64,000 bases of DNA, from the IMG/VR virus record IMGVR_UViG_3300025138_011172, positions 1 to 64,000 of that record; one strand, given 5' to 3'. This DNA is from a virus. A program made the position numbers and the translations under genes. Below, piece by piece: positions 4,845 to 54,395 of the stretch (position 1 is its first letter; each line of letters begins with the position of its first letter). A model generated the notes under the pieces. The model ran no database searches. It was not told the origin of the DNA and saw only the letters and a list, made by a program, of their open reading frames with translations.

Positions 4845-7800
4845 ATGGCAACTAAAAAAATTACCCAATTAACAGGATTAGTAAGTGGAAGCGTCGTTTC
4901 CGCCAATGATGTACTTCCTATAGTAGATCTTGCTAATGACATAACTAAAAAGATTACAGTAGATAACTTAGCAGGAGCAATGACTGCAAGTTGGGCTTTA
5001 AATGCTATTTCTGCATCTCATGAAATAACACATGAAGTATCCTCATCTTATGCTCAAACAGCATCTTTAGGTGCATTAGGATTTACAGTAGAAGCTAATA
5101 TTTCAGGAGGTTTTACATCAACAGCATCCTTTGGAACATATGTAGGTGATACAGCAACTTTTATACAGGGAACAGGTTTAGATAGTGTAGCAGTTGGTCC
5201 TAACTCAATAGCCAGTACAGAAGGCGCAGTTGGAATAGGAAGTGCAGCACAAGGGAAAGGTGATATTAATTCTACCGCAGTAGGTAAAAGTGCAATAGCA
5301 AATGGAAGAGGTGCCACAGCAATTGGTGATGATGCAGATGCAACAGCAAATCAATCAGTAGCAATAGGTGCAGCAGCAGCAGCATCAACTGTAGGAGCTG
5401 TTTCTATTGGTTTATCTTCTCAAGGAAAAGGTGGTGTTAATGCCACTGCAGTAGGTAAAAGTGCAGTAGCAAATGGAGCAAGTGCTGTAGCAATTGGTGA
5501 TGATGCAGATGCAGTTGGAAGTAATGCAATAGCAATAGGAGCAGGAGCAGGAGCAGCGGGTGCAAATTCTATAGCAGTAGGACAAGGAGTAAATAGTGTC
5601 CCAGCAAGTCAATTAAGAATGGGTAATAGTTCAGTTATCCCATTATCAGCTTCTTTAACAACAGGTGATGTATTATTTCCAAGTACAGCATCAGCTGAAT
5701 TTTTTGTAGGTGATGGTTCTCTTTTAACAGGAATATCTTCTTTATATGAAGCTGGATCAGGAACTCTTTCAATCCAACCAACGATAGATACCCAAAACAC
5801 ATCTTCAGGAGCTTGTTCTAGTATAGGTGGTGGAAAAAAGAACACAACCTCAGGAACCTATGGAAGAGTAGGTGGTGGATGTGGTAATCAAGTAACTACA
5901 AATAGTGTACATGGAGCTGTTTTAGGTGGTAGAAATAACTGTGTTGCTCCTGCTAATTCACAAACAGGAGGAGGTATAGTTGCAGGCCAAAACAATTGCG
6001 TTTTAGGTGGCTGGGGATTTATTGGAGGAGGATTTGGAAACTGTGCTGGTGGATTTGCACAAATAACAATAGGTGGTGGTCAAGCAAATACAGTATCTAG
6101 TGCATATGGTACCATTTCAGGAGGATATACTAATACAATACCAGCATCTTCAAATGCTTCAAACATTGGTGGTGGTGTTAAAAATTTAGCCTCTGCAGGA
6201 TGTGCAACAGTTGGAGGTGGTCAACAAAACACAGGATCAGGAGCACATTCAACAGTAGGTGGTGGTGAATTAAATAATAGTACTACACTTCATAGTACTA
6301 TAGGAGGGGGTAAAAATAATTTAATTGATGGTCAAACTTGTCAAGTTATTGCAGGTGGGCAAGATAATATTAGCTCAGGTCAACACAATGTAATAGGTGG
6401 AGGTTGTAAAAACGATACAGGAACTGGAGCAGGTGTTACAATAGCTGGGGGTAGATGTTCTACTGTTCAAGATGGGGCAAATTCATCATTTATTGGTGGT
6501 GGATTTAGAAACTGTGTAAATTCTAATGGACAAACTGGAACCTTAGCAGGTGGAATGTGTAATGTTGTAGATGCAAATAATTCAACAGTTTCTGGTGGAT
6601 ATAAAAATTGTACTACTGGTTATGCAAGTTTTGTAGGTGGAGGAATATGTAACCATGCTACAGGTTCAGGTTCAACAATTGGAGGTGGATCAGGAAGTTT
6701 TGCTCCTGGTACAATGGGAGTAGTAGGAGGTGGTTATCATAACACAGCTTCAGGAGATTGCTCAGTAGTAGTAGGTGGTACATCTGGTCAAGCTACAGGT
6801 CAACAATCAAGTATTGGTGGTGGTGTTACTAACCAAGCAACTGGAACTCATTCTACAATAGGTGGTGGAGAAACAAACCTAGGTTCAGGGGCAGCAGCAA
6901 CAGTAGCAGGTGGAAGTACAAATATTGCTTCTGCTAATTGTGCAACAATAGCAGGTGGAAAGAACAACTTAGCTAGTGGTGTTATATCTACAATAGGAGG
7001 TGGTATAAATATTTCATCATCAGGAACAGCAGCAACAGTAGGTGGTGGTCAAAACAACGAAGCAACAGCAACAACATCAACAGTAGGTGGTGGTAAACTT
7101 AACATAAGTTCAGGTGCAGGATCAACAATATCTGGTGGATATGGTAATCAAGCTGTAGGAACATGTAGTATAATAGCAGGTGGACTTAGTAATTGTGCAG
7201 ATGGAATACAATCATTTATTGGAGGTGGAATATTTAATTCAGGTTCAGGAGCAGGTTCAACAATTTCAGGTGGATCAGGAAGTTTGGCTGGTGGTGTTAT
7301 GTCTACAATAGGAGGTGGTTCTCATAACACAGCTTCAAAAATCTACTCAACAGTAGCAGGAGGATTTAATAACCAAGCTACTGGTAATTGTTCAACAGTA
7401 GCAGGAGGATGTGGTAATGTTGCATCATCTTTTGTAGCTACCATTGTTGGAGGTAGAGGCAATACAGCTTCTTCTAATTATACATTAGTAGGAGGTTGTG
7501 GTAATACTGCAGCAGCAATAGCTGGAACATCATTTGGTAGAAATAATGCTAATAATGGACAATATGGAACATTATCAGGAGGTTATCGAAACAGTGTTGT
7601 TGAACCAGGGAAATTTGCCACACTAAGTGGTGGATATAACAACGTAGCCTCAGGTTCACTTTCAGTAGTTGCAGGTGGATCAGGAAGTATAGCTAGTGGT
7701 GTTATTTCTACAATAGGAGGTGGTTCTCATAACACAGCTTCAGGATTTTGTTCAACAATTGCAGGTGGTGCTTATAACTGTACCATTAGTACTAAAGGAT

Positions 7801-8378
7801 GTAATTCAATTCTTGGTGGACATAAGAACTGTATAGGTGGAGCTTCACAACATTCAACTATAAGTGGTGGATATGATAATAAAATTTCTGCGGGTTATAG
7901 AGGATTTATTGGTCAAGGTTACCAAAACTGTATTTCAGGTAATAATAGTGCAATTGTTGGAGGAAGTAGTAACGTTGCATCATCAACCAATAACTTTATT
8001 GGAGGAGGTGGAAATAATACAACCTCAGCAAATTATGCTATAATAGTTGGTGGTAATCAAAATGTAACATCAGGGGTTAGATCAGCAATAGTTGGAGGTC
8101 AATGTAATCTCGTCTCTGGAGCTTGTTCAGTAGTTGTTGGTGGTAGATTTAATACAGGATCAGCTGCATTTTCATCAGTATTAGGTGGTGGAAATAATGC
8201 AGTAATACATGCCTCAGCATCTGCAGTAGGACATGATATATTAACAGTAACAAGTTCATCTTTACACGTTAATAACTTAGTAATCCAAACAGGAAGTTTA
8301 CCAACAGGAGATCCAGGAATTTCTGGAATGTTATGGTATGATGCAACAAGTGGATCATTAAAAGTATCATCTCTATAA
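4845..8378 (+). CDS. giant Gly/Cys-rich repeat fibre (YadA-head-like plus GGG-N repeats)
   Basis: A 1177-residue probable virion fibre. Residues 1-47 repeat the N-terminal module of the spike gene at 2036. Around residues 100-270 are YadA-head-like turns (AVGPNSIAS, GIGSAAQGKG, AVGKSAIANG, AIGDDADA). From about 325 to 1110 come dozens of roughly 14-16-residue turns of the form STIGGGxxNxASG, a probable beta-solenoid. Cysteines recur at the same turn position (for example GGGCGN, GNCSTVAGG), which is unusual for an extracellular fibre. The C-terminal 70 residues (LPTGDPGISGMLWYDATSG) resemble the compact end of phage fibres and of the 2036 product. Likely host-adhesion fibre. Confidence 0.75.
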   Translation: MATKKITQLTGLVSGSVVSANDVLPIVDLANDITKKITVDNLAGAMTASWALNAISASHEITHEVSSSYAQTASLGALGFTVEANISGGFTSTASFGTYVGDTATFIQGTGLDSVAVGPNSIASTEGAVGIGSAAQGKGDINSTAVGKSAIANGRGATAIGDDADATANQSVAIGAAAAASTVGAVSIGLSSQGKGGVNATAVGKSAVANGASAVAIGDDADAVGSNAIAIGAGAGAAGANSIAVGQGVNSVPASQLRMGNSSVIPLSASLTTGDVLFPSTASAEFFVGDGSLLTGISSLYEAGSGTLSIQPTIDTQNTSSGACSSIGGGKKNTTSGTYGRVGGGCGNQVTTNSVHGAVLGGRNNCVAPANSQTGGGIVAGQNNCVLGGWGFIGGGFGNCAGGFAQITIGGGQANTVSSAYGTISGGYTNTIPASSNASNIGGGVKNLASAGCATVGGGQQNTGSGAHSTVGGGELNNSTTLHSTIGGGKNNLIDGQTCQVIAGGQDNISSGQHNVIGGGCKNDTGTGAGVTIAGGRCSTVQDGANSSFIGGGFRNCVNSNGQTGTLAGGMCNVVDANNSTVSGGYKNCTTGYASFVGGGICNHATGSGSTIGGGSGSFAPGTMGVVGGGYHNTASGDCSVVVGGTSGQATGQQSSIGGGVTNQATGTHSTIGGGETNLGSGAAATVAGGSTNIASANCATIAGGKNNLASGVISTIGGGINISSSGTAATVGGGQNNEATATTSTVGGGKLNISSGAGSTISGGYGNQAVGTCSIIAGGLSNCADGIQSFIGGGIFNSGSGAGSTISGGSGSLAGGVMSTIGGGSHNTASKIYSTVAGGFNNQATGNCSTVAGGCGNVASSFVATIVGGRGNTASSNYTLVGGCGNTAAAIAGTSFGRNNANNGQYGTLSGGYRNSVVEPGKFATLSGGYNNVASGSLSVVAGGSGSIASGVISTIGGGSHNTASGFCSTIAGGAYNCTISTKGCNSILGGHKNCIGGASQHSTISGGYDNKISAGYRGFIGQGYQNCISGNNSAIVGGSSNVASSTNNFIGGGGNNTTSANYAIIVGGNQNVTSGVRSAIVGGQCNLVSGACSVVVGGRFNTGSAAFSSVLGGGNNAVIHASASAVGHDILTVTSSSLHVNNLVIQTGSLPTGDPGISGMLWYDATSGSLKVSSL
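5817..8175 (+). repeat. coding repeat array of GGxxN solenoid turns
   Basis: Degenerate tandem units of about 42-48 bases encode turns with the core (I/V)(G/A/S)GG...N. Several larger blocks recur almost word for word, such as the stretch encoding GGSHNTAS near 7315-7340 and again near 7720-7745. The array stays in one frame throughout and offers a template for recombination-driven length change. Confidence 0.8.
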
Positions 8379-28657: not shown

Positions 28658-29305
28658 ATGAAAATACTTTACGTTTTTGTAGCACATATAGATGATTTAG
28701 AATTTTCATGTTTAGGATATTTACTTAATTCTAAATATGATAAAATAAAAGTAATTATAGCTACTACATGGGAAGCTAAAGAAAAAATATTTCAAAAAAA
28801 TCTAAAATTATTAAAAAGTAATATAAATAAAAAAAATTTAATTAAACATATTGATTTAGAATATATTAATTTAGGATTTGAACAGAGAGTAATTCCTACA
28901 CATTTTGATAAAGTTAAGGATAAATTTTATAAAAAAATTGATTTTAATAGTGATTTTGATATATTAACCCATGATATAAATGACGCTCATACAGATCATA
29001 GATCCTTATATGATATTTCATTAGGTCTTTACAAATATGCTAATAAGTTTATTACAATTTATAGCCCTGAAGCTATTAACTTTAAACCTAATTATTTTGT
29101 AGAATTATCAAAGGAACAAAATGATCTAAAAAAAGACCTATTAAATAACTATAACTTTAATGAAGAACAATCATATGCTCAAAAAGGTAGTTATTTTAAT
29201 GATAATAGAATAGATTTACCAACACATTTTGCACTTGAAAACTTTCATGGAAAAGATATAGAAAGTTGTGAAATATACAAAATACACAAATGGTTACAAA
29301 ATTAA
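28658..29305 (+). CDS. PIG-L/LmbE-family deacetylase
   Basis: A 215-residue protein. The zinc/catalytic motif AHIDDLEFSCLGYL (residues 9-22) corresponds to the AHPDD motif, and HDINDAHTDHRSLYDIS to the second metal-binding histidine motif. PIG-L enzymes remove N-acetyl groups from amino sugars. In this island it probably deacetylates an N-acetyl sugar before a further substitution. Pro-to-Ile in AHPDD is a small deviation. Confidence 0.78.
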   Translation: MKILYVFVAHIDDLEFSCLGYLLNSKYDKIKVIIATTWEAKEKIFQKNLKLLKSNINKKNLIKHIDLEYINLGFEQRVIPTHFDKVKDKFYKKIDFNSDFDILTHDINDAHTDHRSLYDISLGLYKYANKFITIYSPEAINFKPNYFVELSKEQNDLKKDLLNNYNFNEEQSYAQKGSYFNDNRIDLPTHFALENFHGKDIESCEIYKIHKWLQN

Positions 29306-30957
29306 ATTACAAAGTTTTAGATTGCACCTTAAGAGATGGAGGGTATTACACTGATTGGAAATTTGAAACCCCTTTAGTTCGTAAAATGGTTAAAGCCTTA
29401 GATAATAATAAGGTTGATATAATTGAATTAGGATATAAATCTCCAATAAAGGGAGGACCTTATAGGAAATGTAATGATGGGTTTATCTCAGATATAATAG
29501 ATTTTAAAGTAAATGCTTCTTTAGCTTTTATGATTGATGTTAAAGATTATGTACTGGAGGGTAAAGTAAACCATGAATTACTTTTAGATATAATTAAACC
29601 CCAAAACACATTCCAAGTTTGTCGTGTAGCAGCTAAATATGATGAACTTATATATCTTTCTACAATTGTTAAATTAATTCAAGGTTTAGGGTATAGAGTT
29701 ATTTGCAATTTAATGGCTGCTTCAAGATTAACTAAAAAAGAAATAACTAATTATGTTTCTATTGCTAATTCTTTAAATTTAGAGGCTATTTATGTAGCAG
29801 ATAGTTATGGAGCTTTATATCCTACAGATGTAAATTCAATTTTTTCTAATAAAAAAATTACAGGGATTCATACCCATGATAATATGGGATTAGCATTTGC
29901 TAATTGTTTAGAAGCTATAAACCAGGGAGCTACATATATAGATGGAACTTTAACTGGAATGGGGCGTGGAGTTGGGAATGTTACAACAGAACAATTATTA
30001 ATCCATAGGGGGGAGATTAATTCTGATTTATTAGATTGCATTAATATATTTAATAAGATGAAAAAGCATTATGGATGGGGAGTAAATGCCCTTTATCATC
30101 AAGCAGGTAAACACCATATTCACCCTCTATATATGCAAGACTTAAACCAATCAAATTTAACTCCAAAGCAACTAATAGATGTTATTCAATCTTTATATGA
30201 ATGTCATTCATATGATAATGAAGCTTTAAATGAATTAAAAAAACAACGTTCTGTAGTTGTAATTCCTGCTAGATATAAATCAAGTAGATTTCCAGGCAAA
30301 CCATTGGCAAAAATTAAAGGAAAAGAAATGATACTTCATGTCGCGGAAAAAGCAGAACAAGCTATAGGAAAAGAAAATGTTTACATAGCTACTGAAAATC
30401 AATTAATAGCTAATATTGTGAGAAAATCAGGATATAAAGTAATAATAACCTCAGATTCTTGTTTAACTGGAACTGATAGGATAGCTGAAGCTTCTAAAGA
30501 AATTAATGCTGACATTTTTATAAATGTTCAAGGTGATGAACCCATGATTGATCCTAAAGATATAAAAAAAGTAATTAAGTTAAAAAAAGATAACCCAAAT
30601 TATGTAATTAATTGTATGTCCCAACTTCATAAAGATGAAGATTCTAATGATAAAAAAATTCCAAAAATTGTTTGTGATTTAGAAGATAATTTATTATATT
30701 CAAGCCGAAATTCAATACCAACAAGAAAATCACAGGATAGTAAAAAAATAATGAAACAAGTTTGTATTTATGCTTTTAGTAAATCTCAATTAAATAAGTT
30801 TTATAGTTTATCAAAAACTCCCCTAGAATCTGAAGAAGATATTGAAATAATTAGATGTTTAGAAAAAGGAATGTTAGTAAAAATGTTAAAGGTAGATAAA
30901 GTATCATACGCCGTAGATTATCCTGAAGATATTAAAATAATTGAAAAAGTGTTATGA
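29290..30957 (+). CDS. bifunctional HMGL-type aldolase / KdsB-like cytidylyltransferase
   Basis: A 555-residue fusion. Residues 1 to about 305 are a DRE-TIM aldolase domain: LDCTLRDGGYYTDWKF, then ITGIHTHDNMGLAFANCLEA and GTLTGMGRGVGNV. Residues about 315-555 resemble CMP-Kdo synthetase: VVIPARYKSSRFPGKPLAKI, ADIFINVQGDEPMIDP and CIYAFSKSQLNKF. The first half would make or cleave a 2-keto acid, the second would CMP-activate a ulosonate. Covalent joining suggests successive steps on one sugar. It overlaps both neighbours. Confidence 0.82.
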   Translation: MVTKLNYKVLDCTLRDGGYYTDWKFETPLVRKMVKALDNNKVDIIELGYKSPIKGGPYRKCNDGFISDIIDFKVNASLAFMIDVKDYVLEGKVNHELLLDIIKPQNTFQVCRVAAKYDELIYLSTIVKLIQGLGYRVICNLMAASRLTKKEITNYVSIANSLNLEAIYVADSYGALYPTDVNSIFSNKKITGIHTHDNMGLAFANCLEAINQGATYIDGTLTGMGRGVGNVTTEQLLIHRGEINSDLLDCINIFNKMKKHYGWGVNALYHQAGKHHIHPLYMQDLNQSNLTPKQLIDVIQSLYECHSYDNEALNELKKQRSVVVIPARYKSSRFPGKPLAKIKGKEMILHVAEKAEQAIGKENVYIATENQLIANIVRKSGYKVIITSDSCLTGTDRIAEASKEINADIFINVQGDEPMIDPKDIKKVIKLKKDNPNYVINCMSQLHKDEDSNDKKIPKIVCDLEDNLLYSSRNSIPTRKSQDSKKIMKQVCIYAFSKSQLNKFYSLSKTPLESEEDIEIIRCLEKGMLVKMLKVDKVSYAVDYPEDIKIIEKVL

Positions 30958-37431: not shown

Positions 37432-38485
37432 AATTACATTTTGTATTCCTAGTAAATCTAATCTTAGATATCTTAAAACTTGTATATCTTCAATTAGAAA
37501 AAATGCTTATAGAAATGATCATGAAATTATAGTATTTGTAGACGAAGATACAGATGGTACTTGTGAATGGTTAAAAGAAAATGCTGATAAATATAATGTA
37601 GATTATTATATTAATTTTAACTTAGGAGATAAATTATTTGGGATTGGTAAAGCCTATGATTATTGTATAGAAAAATCTACTACAGATATTTTTATGATAT
37701 TTCATGCTGATATGATGTTAGGGAAAAATGCAGATTTAAACGCATATAATCAATTAAAATCAAAATCTGTAGTATGTTCTACAAGAATAGAACCTCCACT
37801 TCACCCTAATGGAGGAGAAAAAATATTGCTTGATTTTGGAATGTGGCCTGAAGAATTTAAAGAAGAAGAATTTGATGTTTATGTAAATGAACATTTAGAA
37901 GATACTAAAATAACAGAGGGTATATTTGCCCCGTGGATGATGTATAAAAATGATTTTCTAGAAATTTTAGGAGGACACGACCCAGTAATGCATTCTTGTA
38001 GAGAAGATTCTGATTTATTTAATAGAATGTTATTAGCTGGATTTGATTTTATTCAACCCTGGAATTCTTTAGTATACCATTTAACAGGAAGAGGAGCAGG
38101 TAGTTTTGATGGTGACCCTGAAAGACATGAAAAATGGAAAAAAGATATGAATGATTCAACTTTAGAATTTATTCAAAAATGGGGAAGTAATGTTAATCAT
38201 ACCCCCTTAATGAAACCTATAGTTTCCCCTGTTTATAAAAAATGTGTTAATATTATTAACTCAAATCCACAATTACAAGAAGCGTTAAAACCTTGGTTTA
38301 ATGGAGGAAGAGACATAATAGTTGAAATTGATGGTAATAAATTTACTCAACAAGATTATCAAATAATTCAACAACTCTCAGCGATTATCCAGGATAGTGG
38401 AGAAATTGGTACATTTGAGTTAGGTAATTTAAAAATTACAATTAATAATTTAAATTCATATGAAAAAGATTTAATAAAAATATGA
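37424..38485 (+). CDS. GT2-type glycosyltransferase with C-terminal extension
   Basis: A 353-residue protein. The first roughly 265 residues form a GT-A domain: ITFCIPSKSNLRYLKTCISS, FMIFHADMMLGKNADLN, then HSCREDSDLFNRMLLAGFDF. The last about 85 residues (from about YKKCVNIINSNPQLQEALKP) are a separate small region of unknown role. Overlaps the Gmd gene by eight bases. Confidence 0.8.
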   Translation: MDKITFCIPSKSNLRYLKTCISSIRKNAYRNDHEIIVFVDEDTDGTCEWLKENADKYNVDYYINFNLGDKLFGIGKAYDYCIEKSTTDIFMIFHADMMLGKNADLNAYNQLKSKSVVCSTRIEPPLHPNGGEKILLDFGMWPEEFKEEEFDVYVNEHLEDTKITEGIFAPWMMYKNDFLEILGGHDPVMHSCREDSDLFNRMLLAGFDFIQPWNSLVYHLTGRGAGSFDGDPERHEKWKKDMNDSTLEFIQKWGSNVNHTPLMKPIVSPVYKKCVNIINSNPQLQEALKPWFNGGRDIIVEIDGNKFTQQDYQIIQQLSAIIQDSGEIGTFELGNLKITINNLNSYEKDLIKI

Positions 38486-39408
38486 TAAAAAAAATTGCAG
38501 TTATTACCCCAGTATCCCATTTAGTAGGAATAAAGGAATTATTAGATACTAAAGGAGAAATATTCTACCTAGAGGATAACCCAATAAAATCAAAAGTAAG
38601 AGTACTATTAGAAACTAAAGATATTGATACTATAGTTTGTAATCCTAATCAACAATCATTTAAAATTGATAAACAATTATTAAATAACACTAAAGTAAAA
38701 ATTATAAATTCATGTTCAACTGGGTTAAATCACATTGACTTAGAATATTGTAAATCTCAAAACATTGAAATTCAATGTCATAAAAACGATTATGAATTAA
38801 TAAATCAATTACCATCAACTTCAGAATTAGCTTTTGGGTTAATGGTTTCTTTATTAAGAAATATCCCAAAATGTAATAATCATGTTAAAAATTATGGGTG
38901 GGATTATACTAGGTTCATGGGGAGACAAGTTAAAGATTTAACTATTGGTATTATAGGGTATGGTAGGTTAGGTAAAATGATGAAAAAATATTGTGATGCT
39001 TTTGATGCTAAAACTTATGTTTATGATCCTTACGTTGATATTAAACAAACTTCTTTAAAAGAAATATTTAAAAAATGTGATGTTGTTTCACTCCATGTCC
39101 ATGTTACGAATGAAACAAAATATATGATTTCAGAGGAATTACTTGGATTATCTAAAAAGGGTTTGTATATTATAAACACAAGTAGAGGAGAAATTGTTAA
39201 AGAAGAAGATGTGGTTAAAGCATTAAATAATGGTAAATTAATAGGTTATGGAACAGATGTTATTGAAAATGAATTTGATAATATTAAGGATTCACCAATA
39301 ATAAAAGCAATGAATAAAGGTAAAAATGTTATAGTTACTCCTCATATAGGAGGGATGACAACTGAAGGACAAACAAAAGCGTATAAATGGTCAATAGATA
39401 AATTATAA
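38482..39408 (+). CDS. D-2-hydroxyacid dehydrogenase family protein
   Basis: A 308-residue protein of the D-isomer-specific 2-hydroxyacid dehydrogenase family. The NAD-binding motif is GIIGYGRLGKMMKK, followed by VYDPY; catalytic-domain segments include LYIINTSRGEIVKEEDVV and VTPHIGGMTTEG with the conserved histidine. It would reduce or oxidise a 2-keto/2-hydroxy acid, consistent with a keto-acid sugar route. Pathway position is inferred. Confidence 0.82.
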   Translation: MIKKIAVITPVSHLVGIKELLDTKGEIFYLEDNPIKSKVRVLLETKDIDTIVCNPNQQSFKIDKQLLNNTKVKIINSCSTGLNHIDLEYCKSQNIEIQCHKNDYELINQLPSTSELAFGLMVSLLRNIPKCNNHVKNYGWDYTRFMGRQVKDLTIGIIGYGRLGKMMKKYCDAFDAKTYVYDPYVDIKQTSLKEIFKKCDVVSLHVHVTNETKYMISEELLGLSKKGLYIINTSRGEIVKEEDVVKALNNGKLIGYGTDVIENEFDNIKDSPIIKAMNKGKNVIVTPHIGGMTTEGQTKAYKWSIDKL

Positions 39409-39410
39409 AA

Positions 39411-39971
39411 ATGGAAAAAGTATTAGTAATAATTCCTGCAAAAGCAGATTCAACAAGGTTTATTGGGAAAAATAAACAATTAATCCAAGGTAAAACTTTA
39501 GTAGAACATGCTATTAGTTATGCTAAAAACAGTAAACACCAAGTTAGAATTATAGTATCAACAGAAGATGAAGAAACTAAATTAATAGCTCTTAATAAGG
39601 GGGTTGAAGTAATACATAGAGAAAAAGAATTTATGGGTGATAGAGAGGTAATGGATGTTTATGTAGATGTGTTTGAGAAACTAAAAGATGATAACATTGA
39701 TTATGTTATAGGTTTACAACCAGACAACCCAGATAGGAATGTTACTTTAGATGATGGGTTAGAATATTTTATAGATTTAAAATATGATGATTTAGTTACA
39801 GTTAGTTCTGATGGATCGAGAAATGGAGCTTTAAGAATTACTAGGGCATCACACATTAAATCTGGATATGTTAGTAGAAGAGTAGGTACTATATTAGATA
39901 ATTGTACTAATATTCATTCTAAAAATGATCTTACAAACGCTGAAAAAAATATAAATGAACGAGTATATTAA
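39411..39971 (+). CDS. CMP-ulosonate/nonulosonate cytidylyltransferase-like protein
   Basis: A 186-residue NeuA/KdsB-type nucleotidyltransferase. [20 protein letters not shown] is the P-loop-like signature of CMP-sugar synthetases; [19 protein letters not shown] contains the metal-binding site region. It is short (NeuA is about 220 residues or more). The next gene, a DAHP-synthase-like enzyme, starts 17 bases before its stop, strongly suggesting make-and-activate coupling. Confidence 0.72.
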
Positions 39972-40764
39972 ATCATTAAAAAACCAGGATAAATTAAATA
40001 TATCAATTAACCTTGATAAAAAGTTTAAATGGGAACATTTTAAAATAGCAGGACCCTGTTCAGTAGAGGGAGAAAGTATTATTGAGATTTCAAAAGAAAT
40101 TAAAAAATGTGGAGCAGATGCCTTAAGAGCAGGAGCCTATAAACCTTGTACTTATCCTATTTTAAAAGAAACAAATGGGTGGAAAGAAGGTCTTAGAAAA
40201 GAAGGACTTGAATTACTTAAAGAAGCTAAAAAACAATCAGGTTTACCTATTGTAACTGAAGTAATGGATGCTAGTATGATAGAAGAAGTTAGTGAAGTAG
40301 CAGACATATTTCAAATAGGAACTAGAAATTTTCAAAATTATACACTTTTGGATGCTTTAGGAAAATCTAATACCCCTGTATTATTGAAAAGAGGAACATG
40401 GGGTACTTTAGATGAAATATTAGGAGCATGTGAGCGTATTTTAGTTGGGGGTAATGAAAATATTGCTATATGTTTAAGAGGTGTAGTAGGTATGCCTAAT
40501 TATAGACATATTTTTCCAACAATTAGATGGGCACCTGATTTAATGATGATCCCAGCTTTAAAGGAATTTACTAATATCCCCATTATATATGATCCAAGTC
40601 ATTCTACTGGGTATAGAAATTTTGTTAAACCTATTTCTAGAGCAGCAATAGCTGCAGGTGCCGATGGTTTAATTATTGAAGCTCACCCTACACCTGATGA
40701 ATCTATTAGTGACCCAGCTCAAGCAATTAATTATAGAACTTTAAAAACTATCTTTAATGATTAG
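39955..40764 (+). CDS. DAHP-synthase-like (type I beta) aldol-condensing enzyme with altered substrate motifs
   Basis: A 269-residue TIM-barrel enzyme. [68 protein letters not shown] and [16 protein letters not shown] all match type I beta DAHP synthase. These condense PEP with an aldose phosphate to a 3-deoxy-2-ulosonate. Two conserved motifs differ: KPRT, which contacts erythrose-4-phosphate, is KPCT here (residues 63-66), and ERGIRT is LRGVVG. A different aldehyde substrate is therefore plausible. KDO8P synthase fits less well by motif. Confidence 0.82.
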
Positions 40765-41398
40765 TATTATAATAAGAAATAAAGATGAGTCTGATTTTAT
40801 AGGGCATGCTATTCAATCTTGTGTTGATAACTTTAAAGATCCTGAGATTATAATAGTAGATGATAATTCTCAAGATGATTCTGATAGAGTAATTTCACTG
40901 TTTGATAACACTAATATTAGAATTCATTCTTTACCTAAAAAATATTCCCCAGGATACTCTTTAAACTATGGGGTAAGTGAATGTAATAATAACACAATTT
41001 TAGTCCTTTCAGCCCACTGTCAACTTACAAATTTAGAGGGTTGGGAAAAAAGGGTTAAAACCCAACTAAATGATTATTGTGCTGTTTTTGGGAAACAAAC
41101 CCCAATATATAGAGGTAAAAAAATAACACCTAGGTATATTTGGAGCCATTTTGGGGATACACAAGAAAAAAATTTATTTTCAAAAATTGAACAACGTTAT
41201 TTTTTACATAATGCTTTTTGTTTTTATAATAAAGAATTTTTAGAAAATAACCCATTTGATGAAAAACTTCATGGAAAAGAAGATAGATATTGGGCAATTG
41301 ATATGGTTAAACAAGGGCATAATTACTTATATGACCCTAAACTAAAATGTAATCATTTTTGGACTCCAAGGGGAGCTACATGGAAAGGAATAGGATAA
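40757..41398 (+). CDS. GT2-type glycosyltransferase
   Basis: A 213-residue GT-A enzyme: [32 protein letters not shown] and [20 protein letters not shown] match GT2 donor and catalytic-base motifs. Overlaps the DAHP-synthase-like gene by eight bases. Confidence 0.83.
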
Positions 41399-41409
41399 AA
41401 TAAAAATAC

Positions 41410-42159
41410 ATGAAAATAAAAAATAAAAAATTCACACAACAACATTTAGATAAATGTGATAAAATTAAACAACAGGCTAATATTCAATTTAATTTAACCC
41501 CTGTTAATAATATTTGTTTAATTCTTCAAAAACTAAAAGAATTAAATGATACTGAAGGTCATTATGTTGAATGTGGTACCTATAGAGGAAATACTCTTAT
41601 TCCATCAGCACTGTATTCTTTAAATTATGGGTATTTTAGTGAAAAAAAATTAATAGGTATTGATACATTTAAGGGTTTTCCTAAAACTACACAACATGAT
41701 TATAGAGATCTTCCTAATTATTTTGAAACTTTAAAATCACAAAATTTAATCTCAGAAGATCATTTTAATAAATCAAAACTTAGAACTAAAAATTTTCAGA
41801 GTTTATCACATTTAGAAAATGAATATTTTTTAGATACTCAAGAAGTATTTAACAATTGTAATGAATTCAATAATATTTCTTTATTAAAAGGCACATTTGA
41901 AGAAATAACCCCTACATTTAAAGATAAAATTTCGGTTCTTCATTTAGATGGAGATTTATATAAAAGTTATTTAACATGTTTAGATAATCTATATGATAAT
42001 GTAATTAGTGGGGGTGCAGTAATTTTTGATGAATATTATTCTCATAAATATCCTGGGGCTCGTGTTGCTGTAAATGAATTCTTTTTAGATAAAAAAGGAC
42101 ATTTTGAAAAATATTTAACTGATGAAGGCCATGAAAGATGGTGTTTTATAAAAAAATAA
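41410..42159 (+). CDS. TylF/MycF-type O-methyltransferase
   Basis: A 249-residue methyltransferase. GHYVECGTYRGNTLI is SAM motif I, KLIGIDTFKGFPKT motif II, and VLHLDGDLYKSYLTCLDNL followed by GGAVIFDEYYSHKYPGA carries the metal-binding aspartates seen in TylF. Members methylate sugar hydroxyls, so this likely caps or modifies a glycan. Confidence 0.8.
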   Translation: MKIKNKKFTQQHLDKCDKIKQQANIQFNLTPVNNICLILQKLKELNDTEGHYVECGTYRGNTLIPSALYSLNYGYFSEKKLIGIDTFKGFPKTTQHDYRDLPNYFETLKSQNLISEDHFNKSKLRTKNFQSLSHLENEYFLDTQEVFNNCNEFNNISLLKGTFEEITPTFKDKISVLHLDGDLYKSYLTCLDNLYDNVISGGAVIFDEYYSHKYPGARVAVNEFFLDKKGHFEKYLTDEGHERWCFIKK

Positions 42160-42161
42160 TA

Positions 42162-42779
42162 ATGAGTAAGATTTTATTAATAGGAAATGGCCCCTCAGCT
42201 ATAGAAAAAGAATTAGGATCAAGGATAGATTCAGATGAATTTGATAAAGTTGTTAGGTTTAATAGATGGAAATTTAATGAAGATGGATCAGAGTACGAAA
42301 AAGATCATTCAAAATTTGTAGGTACTAGATGTGATTATTGGGTTATAAATGATTTACATTTAACAGAAACTAAACTAGGAATAAATAAAAGACTTTATTA
42401 TGAATTAGTATTAGTAGTAATGCCTAATTTTAAATTTAATAATAATTTAGTAAATGAAGTTGAAAATAATTACCCTAATATAAAGTTTCTTAGACCCGAA
42501 TTAGAAAATAATGTTAATCAGGTTATTAGTTTCTCTCCATCATGGCCTTCGACAGGTGTTATTGCAATGGAATTTGCTATACAAAATTTTGATGAAGTTT
42601 ATTTACATGGGTTTGATACTTATGATATTAAATATGATACTTTACATTATTTTGAAGGAATAAATGAAACCTATGGTAAAAATGTATTTAAATTTAAAAA
42701 AAGAAAAGATCATACCCCTGAAAAAGAATTACAATATATTAATCATATAATTAAAAACCATAACGTAAAATTTTTATGA
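42162..42779 (+). CDS. GT29 (sialyltransferase)-like protein
   Basis: A 205-residue protein; ATG 42162 chosen over one 24 bases upstream because it directly precedes the fold and clears the previous stop. KILLIGNGPSAIEKELGSRI followed by DKVVRFNRWKF matches sialylmotif L of GT29 (VGNG..L....GxxID..D.VxRfN). SPSWPSTGVIAMEFAIQNFD, then EVYLHGFDTYD, resembles sialylmotif S (TG...A...c.eV...GF). GT29 enzymes use CMP-activated acidic sugars, which fits the cytidylyltransferases in this island. Confidence 0.7.
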   Translation: MSKILLIGNGPSAIEKELGSRIDSDEFDKVVRFNRWKFNEDGSEYEKDHSKFVGTRCDYWVINDLHLTETKLGINKRLYYELVLVVMPNFKFNNNLVNEVENNYPNIKFLRPELENNVNQVISFSPSWPSTGVIAMEFAIQNFDEVYLHGFDTYDIKYDTLHYFEGINETYGKNVFKFKKRKDHTPEKELQYINHIIKNHNVKFL

Positions 42780-51346: not shown

Positions 51347-51583
51347 ATGAAAGAAGTATTAGACCTCGTTAAAGAATTTGGTTTATCTTTAGTAATAGCA
51401 ATTGGAGCCTTATATGCTCTATACAAGTTTTTCTTCTTTAGCATTAGAGAGGTTAAAAATGAATTTGGAAAAAGACATGAAACCATGGCTAAAAACATGG
51501 AAGAAGTAAAAGTAAGCTTAGCTGAAGTAAAATCAGATCTAAAATTAATAGTAGAATTTATTAAAGATGCCAAAACAAAATAA
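51347..51583 (+). CDS. holin-like membrane/coiled-coil protein
   Basis: Seventy-eight residues. One strong membrane segment (GLSLVIAIGALYALYKFFFF, about 12-31) is followed by a charged coiled coil (EVKVSLAEVKSDLKLIVEFI). This layout is seen in small holins and XhlA-like proteins. A TATTTATA motif lies 42 bases upstream. Confidence 0.5.
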   Translation: MKEVLDLVKEFGLSLVIAIGALYALYKFFFFSIREVKNEFGKRHETMAKNMEEVKVSLAEVKSDLKLIVEFIKDAKTK

Positions 51584-51584
51584 G

Positions 51585-54395
51585 ATGAAAAAAATATTAT
51601 TTAGTTTTGTAACAGTTCTATGCTTATTTTCAACTGTTAATTTTTCACAAACTGTAGCACCAGTTACTTTCAGACTAGATCTAAATGATGTCATAAGTAA
51701 TGTACCTAATTCTGATTCAGCACAAGTATTTGTACAAACAAATGTTGCCAGTTGGGTTGATATACCAATGGAAGATATTGGTGGAAATGGTATATGGAGA
51801 AAAAATATCAATATAACCCACCCAGCAGGTCAAAATGTAGATGTATTTTATAGGTTTAAAGTAACATCATTTGGATCAAATGGGTTACCTTACATCTTAT
51901 GGGAAGGAGGACCTAATGCAGATACTAGTTGTTTAGCTGACCCAAATGATTATGGATTAGCAGGAGGATTGGTAAGAGAAGTACTAGTACCACAAGAATT
52001 AATTGATAATGGTACTTATGTTAACCCATCAGGAGAATTTAAGTTAACGCATTGTTTTAATATATGTGGTAATGCACCATGCCCACCAGAACCTTGTATT
52101 AATGGTTTAACTTCAACTAACGCCTATCAACAGTGTATTAATGGGGGAGCTCAAACTCTTATAGTTTTTGAATGGCAAACCGACTGCGAAATCCAGTCTG
52201 TTGAATATACTAATGCAGAAGGCGTTGGTCCATTTACATATCTAGTTAATTTTGATGCTTTAAATTTTGGGGTATTTGCGGGAACACTAAATATGCCACC
52301 AAATTGGTCAGTAGAACATCAATTAACAGTTAATTTTGTTGATGGAACACAATCTGCTCCTATTTTTTATACTCCACAACCATGTATTCCAGGTTGCATG
52401 GATCCTAATTCAATATCTTATAATCCATGGGCAACTAACGATGATGGCTCCTGTATCAGCAGTGGTAATAGCGGTGGTTGTGATACAAATGATTTTGAAA
52501 TAACAATATCAATAACTTTAGATAATTGGCCTGGAGAAACCTCTTGGACACTAGTGTCGTTATCCGATGGAGGAATTCCTATACAGATGCCACAAGGGGA
52601 ATATGACTTTGCAGATGTAGGTCAAACATATGATTATACAGTTTGTATTGATAGTTTAGGAGTCGAACTTATTATAAATGATTCATATGGTGATGGTTTA
52701 CAAGGAGGTAACACACCTGGAAATGTTATTATATATAACTGTGATGGCGATACCATATGGGAACTTCCTGCACCAAACTTTGGATCTGTAGCTTATTCAG
52801 GACCTGTACAGGGAAGTGCATGTAGTGGAACAACACCTGTTCTAGGATGTACAGATCCGATGTATCAAGAATTTGATCCTACAGCTAATATAGATGATGG
52901 AAGTTGTTTAACTTCTCACATATTTGGATGTACTGATCCAACATCATTTAACTATGATCCAGTTGCAACAATGCAAGAAATAATTCCTACATGCAACTAT
53001 GAGTTATGGATAGGAGATGCAGCTGCTGATGGTTGGGGCAATTCCTATATTGGTGTAATTCAAGGAACAAATCAATGGACATTTACAATTGGGCCTGGAT
53101 CTTATAATCAAACATTTCCAATAACATTAGACACAGATAAACCTATTGAAGTTTATTATTTTGAAGTAGCAGCACCACAACAATCAGCACAAGAAGTTGA
53201 ATTTCAAACATGGCATAATTCATTTAAACTAACTAATGCAGACGGAGTGGTATTAATACACGAAGGACAAAACCCATTTGCTAATAATGGACAAGGCGCT
53301 TTACAGCCATTTGAATCCCCATTTTATGAAAAATATCAAGCAATACCTTTTTGTGGAGATTTATGTATTCCTGTTATACTCGGATGTACTGATTCAACAT
53401 CATTGAATTATGATCCATTAGCTAACACAGATAATGGTACATGCATTCCAATAATATATGGTTGTACTAATAACTTAGCATTTAATTATGATTCAACAGC
53501 AACAGTAGATGATGGCTCTTGTATAGCAACAATATATGGGTGTACAGATTTAACTTCATTTAATTATAATCCATTAGCAAATGTTGATGACGGTTCTTGT
53601 ATATATTTTGGTTGCACTGATTTAACTGCATTAAATTATGATCCAAATGCTAATGTTGATAATGGTACTTGTATTTACCCAGTTTATGGTTGCACAGACC
53701 CAACTATGTTTAATTATGATCCTAATGCAAATGTAAATGATGGTAGTTGTGTACCTTTTATTTATGGTTGTATGGATCCAACTATGTTTAATTATAACTC
53801 AACTGCCAACACAGATAATGGATCATGTATACCTATAGTATTTGGGTGTATTGATTCAATCGCATTAAATTATGATCCAATGGCAAATACCGATAATGGA
53901 ACTTGTATTATACCAGTAATAGGTTGTACAGATCCAAATGCTTATAATTATGATCCTACAGCTAATGTAACAGATTCTACCTCTTGTTTATATGATGCAG
54001 GTTGTATTACAGGGCCAGGTAATCCTTATTGGCTAAATGATGATTGTTATGCTTGGGTAATTAGTATAGACCCTTATTGTTGTAATGTAGCTTGGGACAA
54101 CAATTGTCAAAATACTTATGATTATTGTGCTTCAAATAGTGGTTGGGTTGGAGTTGAAGATTTAGTTCAAGGTGGAGGTGTAGCTATTTATCCAAACCCT
54201 ACTACAGATAAATTAAATATAGTAAGTTCAAGATTAAATAATACATTTGTAACTATGTATTCAACATCGGGTCAAATAGTTATTAATGAAACTAATAATA
54301 GTGTTATTGATATAAGTCATTTAGAAAATGGAATATACTTTATGAATGTAAAAGTAGGAAAATTAACTTATATTAAAAAAGTAATTAAACAATAA
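51585..54395 (+). CDS. secreted Cys-rich repeat protein with T9SS C-terminal sorting domain
   Basis: A 936-residue protein from ATG 51585; an ATG 18 bases upstream would only add residues ahead of the signal peptide. The signal peptide is MKKILFSFVTVLCLFSTVNF. Then come a beta-sandwich region, two domains with DSYGDGLQGG/DAAADGWGNS, and about eleven repeats of the form GCTDPTSFNYDPLANVDDGSC, common in marine Bacteroidota surface proteins. The last roughly 70 residues (VAIYPNPTTDKLNIVSS ... NGIYFMNVKVGKLTYIKKV) are a type A T9SS sorting domain. It should be exported through the host T9SS. Very unusual in a phage. Confidence 0.85.
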   Translation: MKKILFSFVTVLCLFSTVNFSQTVAPVTFRLDLNDVISNVPNSDSAQVFVQTNVASWVDIPMEDIGGNGIWRKNINITHPAGQNVDVFYRFKVTSFGSNGLPYILWEGGPNADTSCLADPNDYGLAGGLVREVLVPQELIDNGTYVNPSGEFKLTHCFNICGNAPCPPEPCINGLTSTNAYQQCINGGAQTLIVFEWQTDCEIQSVEYTNAEGVGPFTYLVNFDALNFGVFAGTLNMPPNWSVEHQLTVNFVDGTQSAPIFYTPQPCIPGCMDPNSISYNPWATNDDGSCISSGNSGGCDTNDFEITISITLDNWPGETSWTLVSLSDGGIPIQMPQGEYDFADVGQTYDYTVCIDSLGVELIINDSYGDGLQGGNTPGNVIIYNCDGDTIWELPAPNFGSVAYSGPVQGSACSGTTPVLGCTDPMYQEFDPTANIDDGSCLTSHIFGCTDPTSFNYDPVATMQEIIPTCNYELWIGDAAADGWGNSYIGVIQGTNQWTFTIGPGSYNQTFPITLDTDKPIEVYYFEVAAPQQSAQEVEFQTWHNSFKLTNADGVVLIHEGQNPFANNGQGALQPFESPFYEKYQAIPFCGDLCIPVILGCTDSTSLNYDPLANTDNGTCIPIIYGCTNNLAFNYDSTATVDDGSCIATIYGCTDLTSFNYNPLANVDDGSCIYFGCTDLTALNYDPNANVDNGTCIYPVYGCTDPTMFNYDPNANVNDGSCVPFIYGCMDPTMFNYNSTANTDNGSCIPIVFGCIDSIALNYDPMANTDNGTCIIPVIGCTDPNAYNYDPTANVTDSTSCLYDAGCITGPGNPYWLNDDCYAWVISIDPYCCNVAWDNNCQNTYDYCASNSGWVGVEDLVQGGGVAIYPNPTTDKLNIVSSRLNNTFVTMYSTSGQIVINETNNSVIDISHLENGIYFMNVKVGKLTYIKKVIKQ
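52396..53992 (+). repeat. eleven GCTD...NYDP...DDGSC coding repeats
   Basis: Protein repeats of about 21 core residues, one near 52396-52455 and ten between about 52846 and 53992. The final eight are nearly continuous from about 53382. Each has two conserved Cys, a NYDP core and a D(D/N)G(S/T)C end, perhaps a Ca-binding and disulfide-bonded unit. Confidence 0.8.

Follow-up and report, generated by a model that had tools for sequence, protein, structure and literature searches.

A DAHP synthase-derived protein as the probable counterpart of NeuB in a predicted CMP-ulosonate gene module of uncultivated phages

In a 64,000-nucleotide stretch of viral DNA (positions 1 to 64,000 of the IMG/VR record IMGVR_UViG_3300025138_011172, hereafter the window), we found a protein resembling DAHP synthase (DAHPS) that is probably a DAHPS-derived ulosonate synthase doing a NeuB-type job in a phage CMP-ulosonate module, a reading to which we give a probability of about 0.8 on comparative sequence evidence. 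The DAHPS-like clade most likely does the job of NeuB because the two kinds of synthase share one operon slot, were never found in it together, and have been repeatedly exchanged. The initial annotation had proposed that the enzyme produces another 3-deoxy-ulosonate for later activation with CMP, and this proposal gains support, mostly from evidence beyond that annotation: the exchange, the fold of the neighbouring nucleotidyltransferase, and the presence of a further DAHPS or KdsA-type enzyme in three of the genomes that carry the gene.

The source virus record is 65.6 kb long and carries phage replication genes. Within a long stretch of glycan genes in the window, the genes of a dehydrogenase, a cytidylyltransferase (NTase), the DAHPS-like protein and a GT2 glycosyltransferase overlap or abut one another (Table 1), and the positions of the reading frames confirm the initial annotation, down to the 17 bases by which the start of the DAHPS-like gene lies inside the end of the NTase gene. 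Elsewhere in the window, a 555-aa protein (29290-30957) joins an HMGL-like domain, similar to 4-hydroxy-2-oxovalerate aldolase, to a KdsB-type cytidylyltransferase, and a 1177-aa protein (4845-8378) has many short repeats that, judged by eye, are like trimeric-autotransporter head repeats. A 942-aa protein (51567-54395) was likewise judged by eye to have a signal-peptide-like N-terminus and a C-terminus like a T9SS sorting domain, the latter suggesting a Bacteroidota host.

Table 1. Genes of the module and an optional partner in the window
Feature	Coordinates	Strand	Evidence
D-2-hydroxyacid dehydrogenase, 308 aa, first module gene	38482..39408	+	PF02826, E 5e-46
Compact NeuA-like cytidylyltransferase (NTase), 186 aa	39411..39971	+	PF02348, profile match 1EYR, structural matches
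DAHPS-like ulosonate synthase (predicted), 269 aa	39955..40764	+	PF00793, E 1.3e-50; clade SH-aLRT 99
GT2 glycosyltransferase, 213 aa, LSAHC at expected DxD position	40757..41398	+	PF00535
GT29 (sialyltransferase)-like gene, same cluster, optional partner	42138..42779	+	PF00777, E 4e-12

A scan of IMG/VR with profiles of the NTase and the dehydrogenase gave 46 distinct loci carrying both genes, three of them in cellular records; the loci are related by descent, and the counts below are not independent events. The slot between the NTase and the GT2 was occupied by a NeuB-family gene in 30 loci and by a DAHPS-like gene in 15, and by neither in the one locus whose contig ends before the slot. None of the 46 had both synthases, as checked over flanks of 6-8 kb in contigs that are often partial, and a KDO8PS-like gene lay near 2 of the 15 DAHPS-like genes. 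An independent clustering that included the window gave the same division, with 16 DAHPS-like loci having no NeuB and 30 NeuB loci having no DAHPS-like gene. PF03102 was confirmed for example enzymes of the NeuB slot, and the phage NeuB enzymes found there are without a SAF domain, except in locus L140, where NeuB is fused to the NTase. The idea that the DAHPS-like gene is a chance neighbour of a glycan cluster was rejected, the arrangement being conserved over the 46 loci.

The trees of the partner genes, which are quick searches with some long branches, require the synthase label to change 4 times for the NTase (supported branches force at least 3 of these), 9 times for the dehydrogenase (at least 5 forced) and 10 times for the GT2. 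Comparing the 173-kb phages of loci L002 and L153, DNA identity is 88.6% over the dehydrogenase and NTase genes and 97.9% over the 3.3 kb downstream; despite these near-identical flanks, L002 carries the DAHPS-like gene and L153 carries NeuB. NeuB and the DAHPS-like enzyme have thus been swapped repeatedly, and the simplest reading of this, together with their occupation of one slot, is functional replacement.

The DAHPS-like protein is a genuine PF00793 member (172 bits), its nearest solved structures by sequence are I-beta DAHP synthases, and its AlphaFold model (pLDDT 89) has 1VS1 as the best structural match. It scored below the cut-off of each equivalog model: the window protein (P0001) reached 237.3 bits against 267.75 for TIGR01361 (DAHPS), 93 against 314 for TIGR01362 (KDO8PS) and 20.8 against 399.65 for TIGR03569 (NeuB), and the family members in L015, L016 and L017 reached 261, 240 and 248 bits with TIGR01361. 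The match to PF03102 (NeuB) was weak, at 31 bits, and a domain search of the window protein gave no match to a C-terminal SAF domain. When the protein was set against known synthases, the check proposed along with the initial annotation, its relatives formed a clade of their own (SH-aLRT 99) on the DAHPS side and apart from KDO8PS, in a quick tree without bootstrap. Identity as a KDO8PS or a NeuB by sequence was rejected on the domain and equivalog scores together with the position in the tree. The family is also set off by a gap in score, with members at 446-518 bits and everything else in the scored loci at 251 bits or less, and the gene is evidently maintained, since dN/dS was about 0.05-0.12 in three pairs, indicating purifying selection.

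The type I-beta DAHPS-like, PEP-binding body recognised in the initial annotation holds up at the level of single residues. Taking the roles of residues in I-beta enzymes from PMC6362186, the metal residues C35, H216, E242 and D253 and the PEP residues R58, K63, R124, K145 and R175 do not vary among 19 family sequences, and in the same 19 the Arg67 that contacts the phosphate of erythrose 4-phosphate (E4P) is Cys, with Thr68 kept. The loss of Arg67 with the PEP and metal sites retained is counted in favour of a NeuB-type role. In addition, the Ser after the KPxT motif is Tyr or Phe in the family, and there are two insertions, one after KPCTYP and the other after LRGV. The substrate motifs on which the initial annotation relied fared less well. 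The change from KPRT to KPCT is present, with no variation in 17 aligned family sequences, but it is not unique, occurring in 8 of the 40 ordinary I-beta DAHP synthases of the comparison set, from Armatimonadota-type genomes; Armatimonadota enzymes with KPCT exceed the TIGR01361 cut-off along their entire length, and among the loci with such ordinary synthases (L018-L027) several have the gene directly downstream of one for a HisC-type aminotransferase. KPCT was therefore rejected as a diagnostic in itself. The string LRGVVG in place of ERGIRT is likewise present, but by the HMM and MAFFT alignments it reflects a Glu-to-Leu change and a 6-residue insertion, and not a loss: the second Arg of ERGIRT falls on R184 (in YRH), which is invariant in the family, and so appears to be retained despite the insertion. 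Because KPCT occurs in ordinary DAHPS and the second Arg has a counterpart at R184, the argument from motifs is weak when taken alone, and the compatibility of KPCT with an ordinary DAHPS is counted against our reading.

It could accordingly be proposed that the protein is an ordinary, feedback-insensitive DAHPS, an auxiliary gene with which the phage boosts the shikimate pathway in infection and which lies in a glycan cluster by chance. The type I-beta ancestry, the intact PEP and metal sites and the presence of KPCT in DAHP synthases of aromatic context would all agree with this. We consider it very unlikely, in view of the score under the TIGR01361 cut-off, the fixed place of the gene in an operon with the dehydrogenase, NTase and GT2, both in phages and in four cellular lineages, its exchange with NeuB, and the finding of no other shikimate gene among the constant neighbours in the clustered loci. 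That three of the carrier genomes have a further DAHPS or KdsA-type enzyme is counted for the NeuB-type role: besides the family member, the Synechococcus carrier encodes a type I-alpha DAHPS and a KdsA, and the Pelagibacter and Elusimicrobia carriers each have another PF00793 enzyme, scoring KDO8PS-like in the comparison set. In L013 and L014, whose genomes are incomplete, the sole PF00793 match was the family member.

A second DAHPS-like family was seen in Pelagibacterales (L057-L064 and L095-L102), with KPLT and with Asn in place of the metal Cys; in the tree its sister group is the phage family, though the branches are long. Its clusters contain AroE-like and Gfo/Idh-type genes, and several of them have a NeuA-like NTase and a SAHC-type GT2 as well.

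As for the partners, the NeuA/KdsB-like label given to the NTase gene in the initial annotation is borne out by the CTP_transf_3 domain (PF02348), the profile match to 1EYR and a NeuA-like fold, for which the 13 best structural matches were CMP-sialate-type synthetases (CMP-Neu5Ac, CMP-Kdn or CMP-Pse synthetases), with query-normalised TM-scores of 0.86-0.87 to 6IFD and 1EYR. The metal pair Asp209/Asp211 of NmNeuA is replaced by Asn and His in the window NTase (Asn-Ile-His). Across the module, the C-terminal metal motif is N/D-I-H, with Asn predominating in DAHPS-partnered copies, and the D-I-H of NeuB-partnered copies is also kept in the DAHPS-partnered L002, L006 and L029. The dehydrogenase, present in 45 of the 46 clustered loci, has the NAD fold and Arg-Glu-His set of a D-2-hydroxyacid dehydrogenase, and its catalytic R235, E264 and H288 and its GYGRLG motif are invariant in 11 relatives. 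To our knowledge, such an enzyme has no place in the known Neu, Leg, Pse or Kdo pathways; this, and the NTase metal ligands that differ from those of NeuA, are counted against our reading. Directly upstream of the dehydrogenase in L002 (L002:5889-6542), a transaldolase-like gene was noted by eye, which does not belong to the constant part of the module. Gene fusions join the NTase to the dehydrogenase in L015 and the GT2 to the NTase in L029 and L030, and these, the L140 fusion and an NTase fold nearest to CMP-sialate synthetases are counted for the NeuB-type role.

All 42 GT2s of the module have SAH or SSH at the DxD position. A GT2 without DxD would fit a CMP donor, which is not proof of one because metal-independent GT6 enzymes, as described in PMC3961637, use UDP-sugars. 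The SAH/SSH subfamily goes with NeuA-type NTases in phages, SAR11, Synechococcus and Elusimicrobia. GT29-like genes were found in 7 of 16 DAHPS-type loci, the window included, versus 2 of 30 NeuB-type loci.

These partners also bear on a different scheme, in which the module makes a phosphorylated acid: the dehydrogenase reduces or oxidises the 2-keto group, the NTase acts as a CTP:phosphate cytidylyltransferase, and the GT2 transfers a CDP-linked, non-anomeric acid. The constancy of the dehydrogenase and its fusion to an NTase in L015 speak for such a scheme, as do metal ligands unlike those of NeuA. It is nevertheless unlikely, as the NTase is nearest to NeuA in sequence and fold, and not to IspD or MobA, and as the window cluster, like 6 other DAHPS-type loci, contains a GT29-type gene.

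For the preferred NeuB-type role, a pathway can be envisioned in which the synthase, with a divalent metal held by the four metal residues, would condense PEP with the aldehyde of an aldose to give a 3-deoxy-2-ulosonic acid; the NeuA-like enzyme of the overlapping gene would convert this acid into a CMP-sugar, and the GT2 lacking DxD, or the nearby GT29-like enzyme, would transfer the sugar to a glycan of the virion or the host. The dehydrogenase would carry out some step of the same pathway. The substrates of NeuB (the Neu, Leg and Pse synthases) are unphosphorylated; since, in addition, Arg67 has become Cys and no phosphatase was found in the constant module of the clustered loci, we lean slightly towards an unphosphorylated aldose. 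We see about even chances that the dehydrogenase, NTase, synthase and GT2 make up a complete CMP-ulosonate pathway of marine phages that has not been described before and leads to a new acidic sugar, with two recruitments for the synthase step, one from NeuB and the other from DAHPS, and repeated natural exchange of the two.

The dehydrogenase, NTase and GT2 were kept in all of the first 11 IMG/VR relatives. Five contigs are cellular carriers, from a Bacteroidetes SAG, a Pelagibacteraceae SAG, a Synechococcus SAG, an Elusimicrobia MAG and one short MAG contig. The family looks rare in cells, because a search of four groups found it in 1/299, 1/297, 1/345 and 1/248 genomes, each hit being the carrier used as the centre. 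The compact NTases of SAR11 are often near NeuB and not near the module dehydrogenase. Among 50,697 records of isolated phages, neither the NTase nor the GT2 had a match, and the synthase had none above 60% identity; the weak matches sit in small unannotated or bacterial-looking records. Our literature search found no paper tying DAHPS, a cytidylyltransferase and glycan genes together in such a manner. The component families are thus already known, and it is the DAHPS lineage as a substitute for NeuB, the four-gene module and its distribution in phages that were not found in the literature searched or in isolated phages.

The database label of such proteins is 3-deoxy-7-phosphoheptulonate synthase, and phage surveys would score them as shikimate genes; if our reading is true, the proteins of this phage family are sugar-acid synthases instead. 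The exchange would also provide a natural experiment on the change of aldose within the superfamily, with matched operons such as L002 and L153 that differ in the synthase. The finding also suggests that uncultivated marine phages make acidic surface sugars.

Compared with known systems, the window protein shares with type I-beta DAHPS (TIGR01361; 1VS1, 1ZCO, 1RZM) its fold, its PEP and metal residues, the K-P-x-T motif and its sequence ancestry, but differs in having Cys for the E4P-phosphate Arg, Tyr/Phe after KPxT, two insertions, no regulatory domain, a score below the equivalog cut-off, and a glycan instead of an aromatic operon. With NeuB-type sialic acid synthases (PF03102) it shares the slot, the dehydrogenase, the NTase and the GT2, and PEP condensation followed by CMP activation is expected of both, whereas it belongs to another branch of the superfamily, matches PF03102 weakly and falls short of the NeuB equivalog models. 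The predicted sequence of events, from PEP and an aldose to a 3-deoxy-ulosonate and then to CMP activation, is that of KDO-8-phosphate synthase with KdsB, but the protein is without the KANRS-type motif and outside the KDO8PS clade, and the constant module is without a KdsC-type phosphatase. Finally, epaA and epaB of Acinetobacter prophages, phage-encoded genes for 8-epi-pseudaminic acid (PMC12053666), are likewise nonulosonate genes carried by phages, and they alter a surface polysaccharide; unlike the present module, in which the synthase and activation steps are predicted to be phage-encoded, they modify a sugar made by the host.
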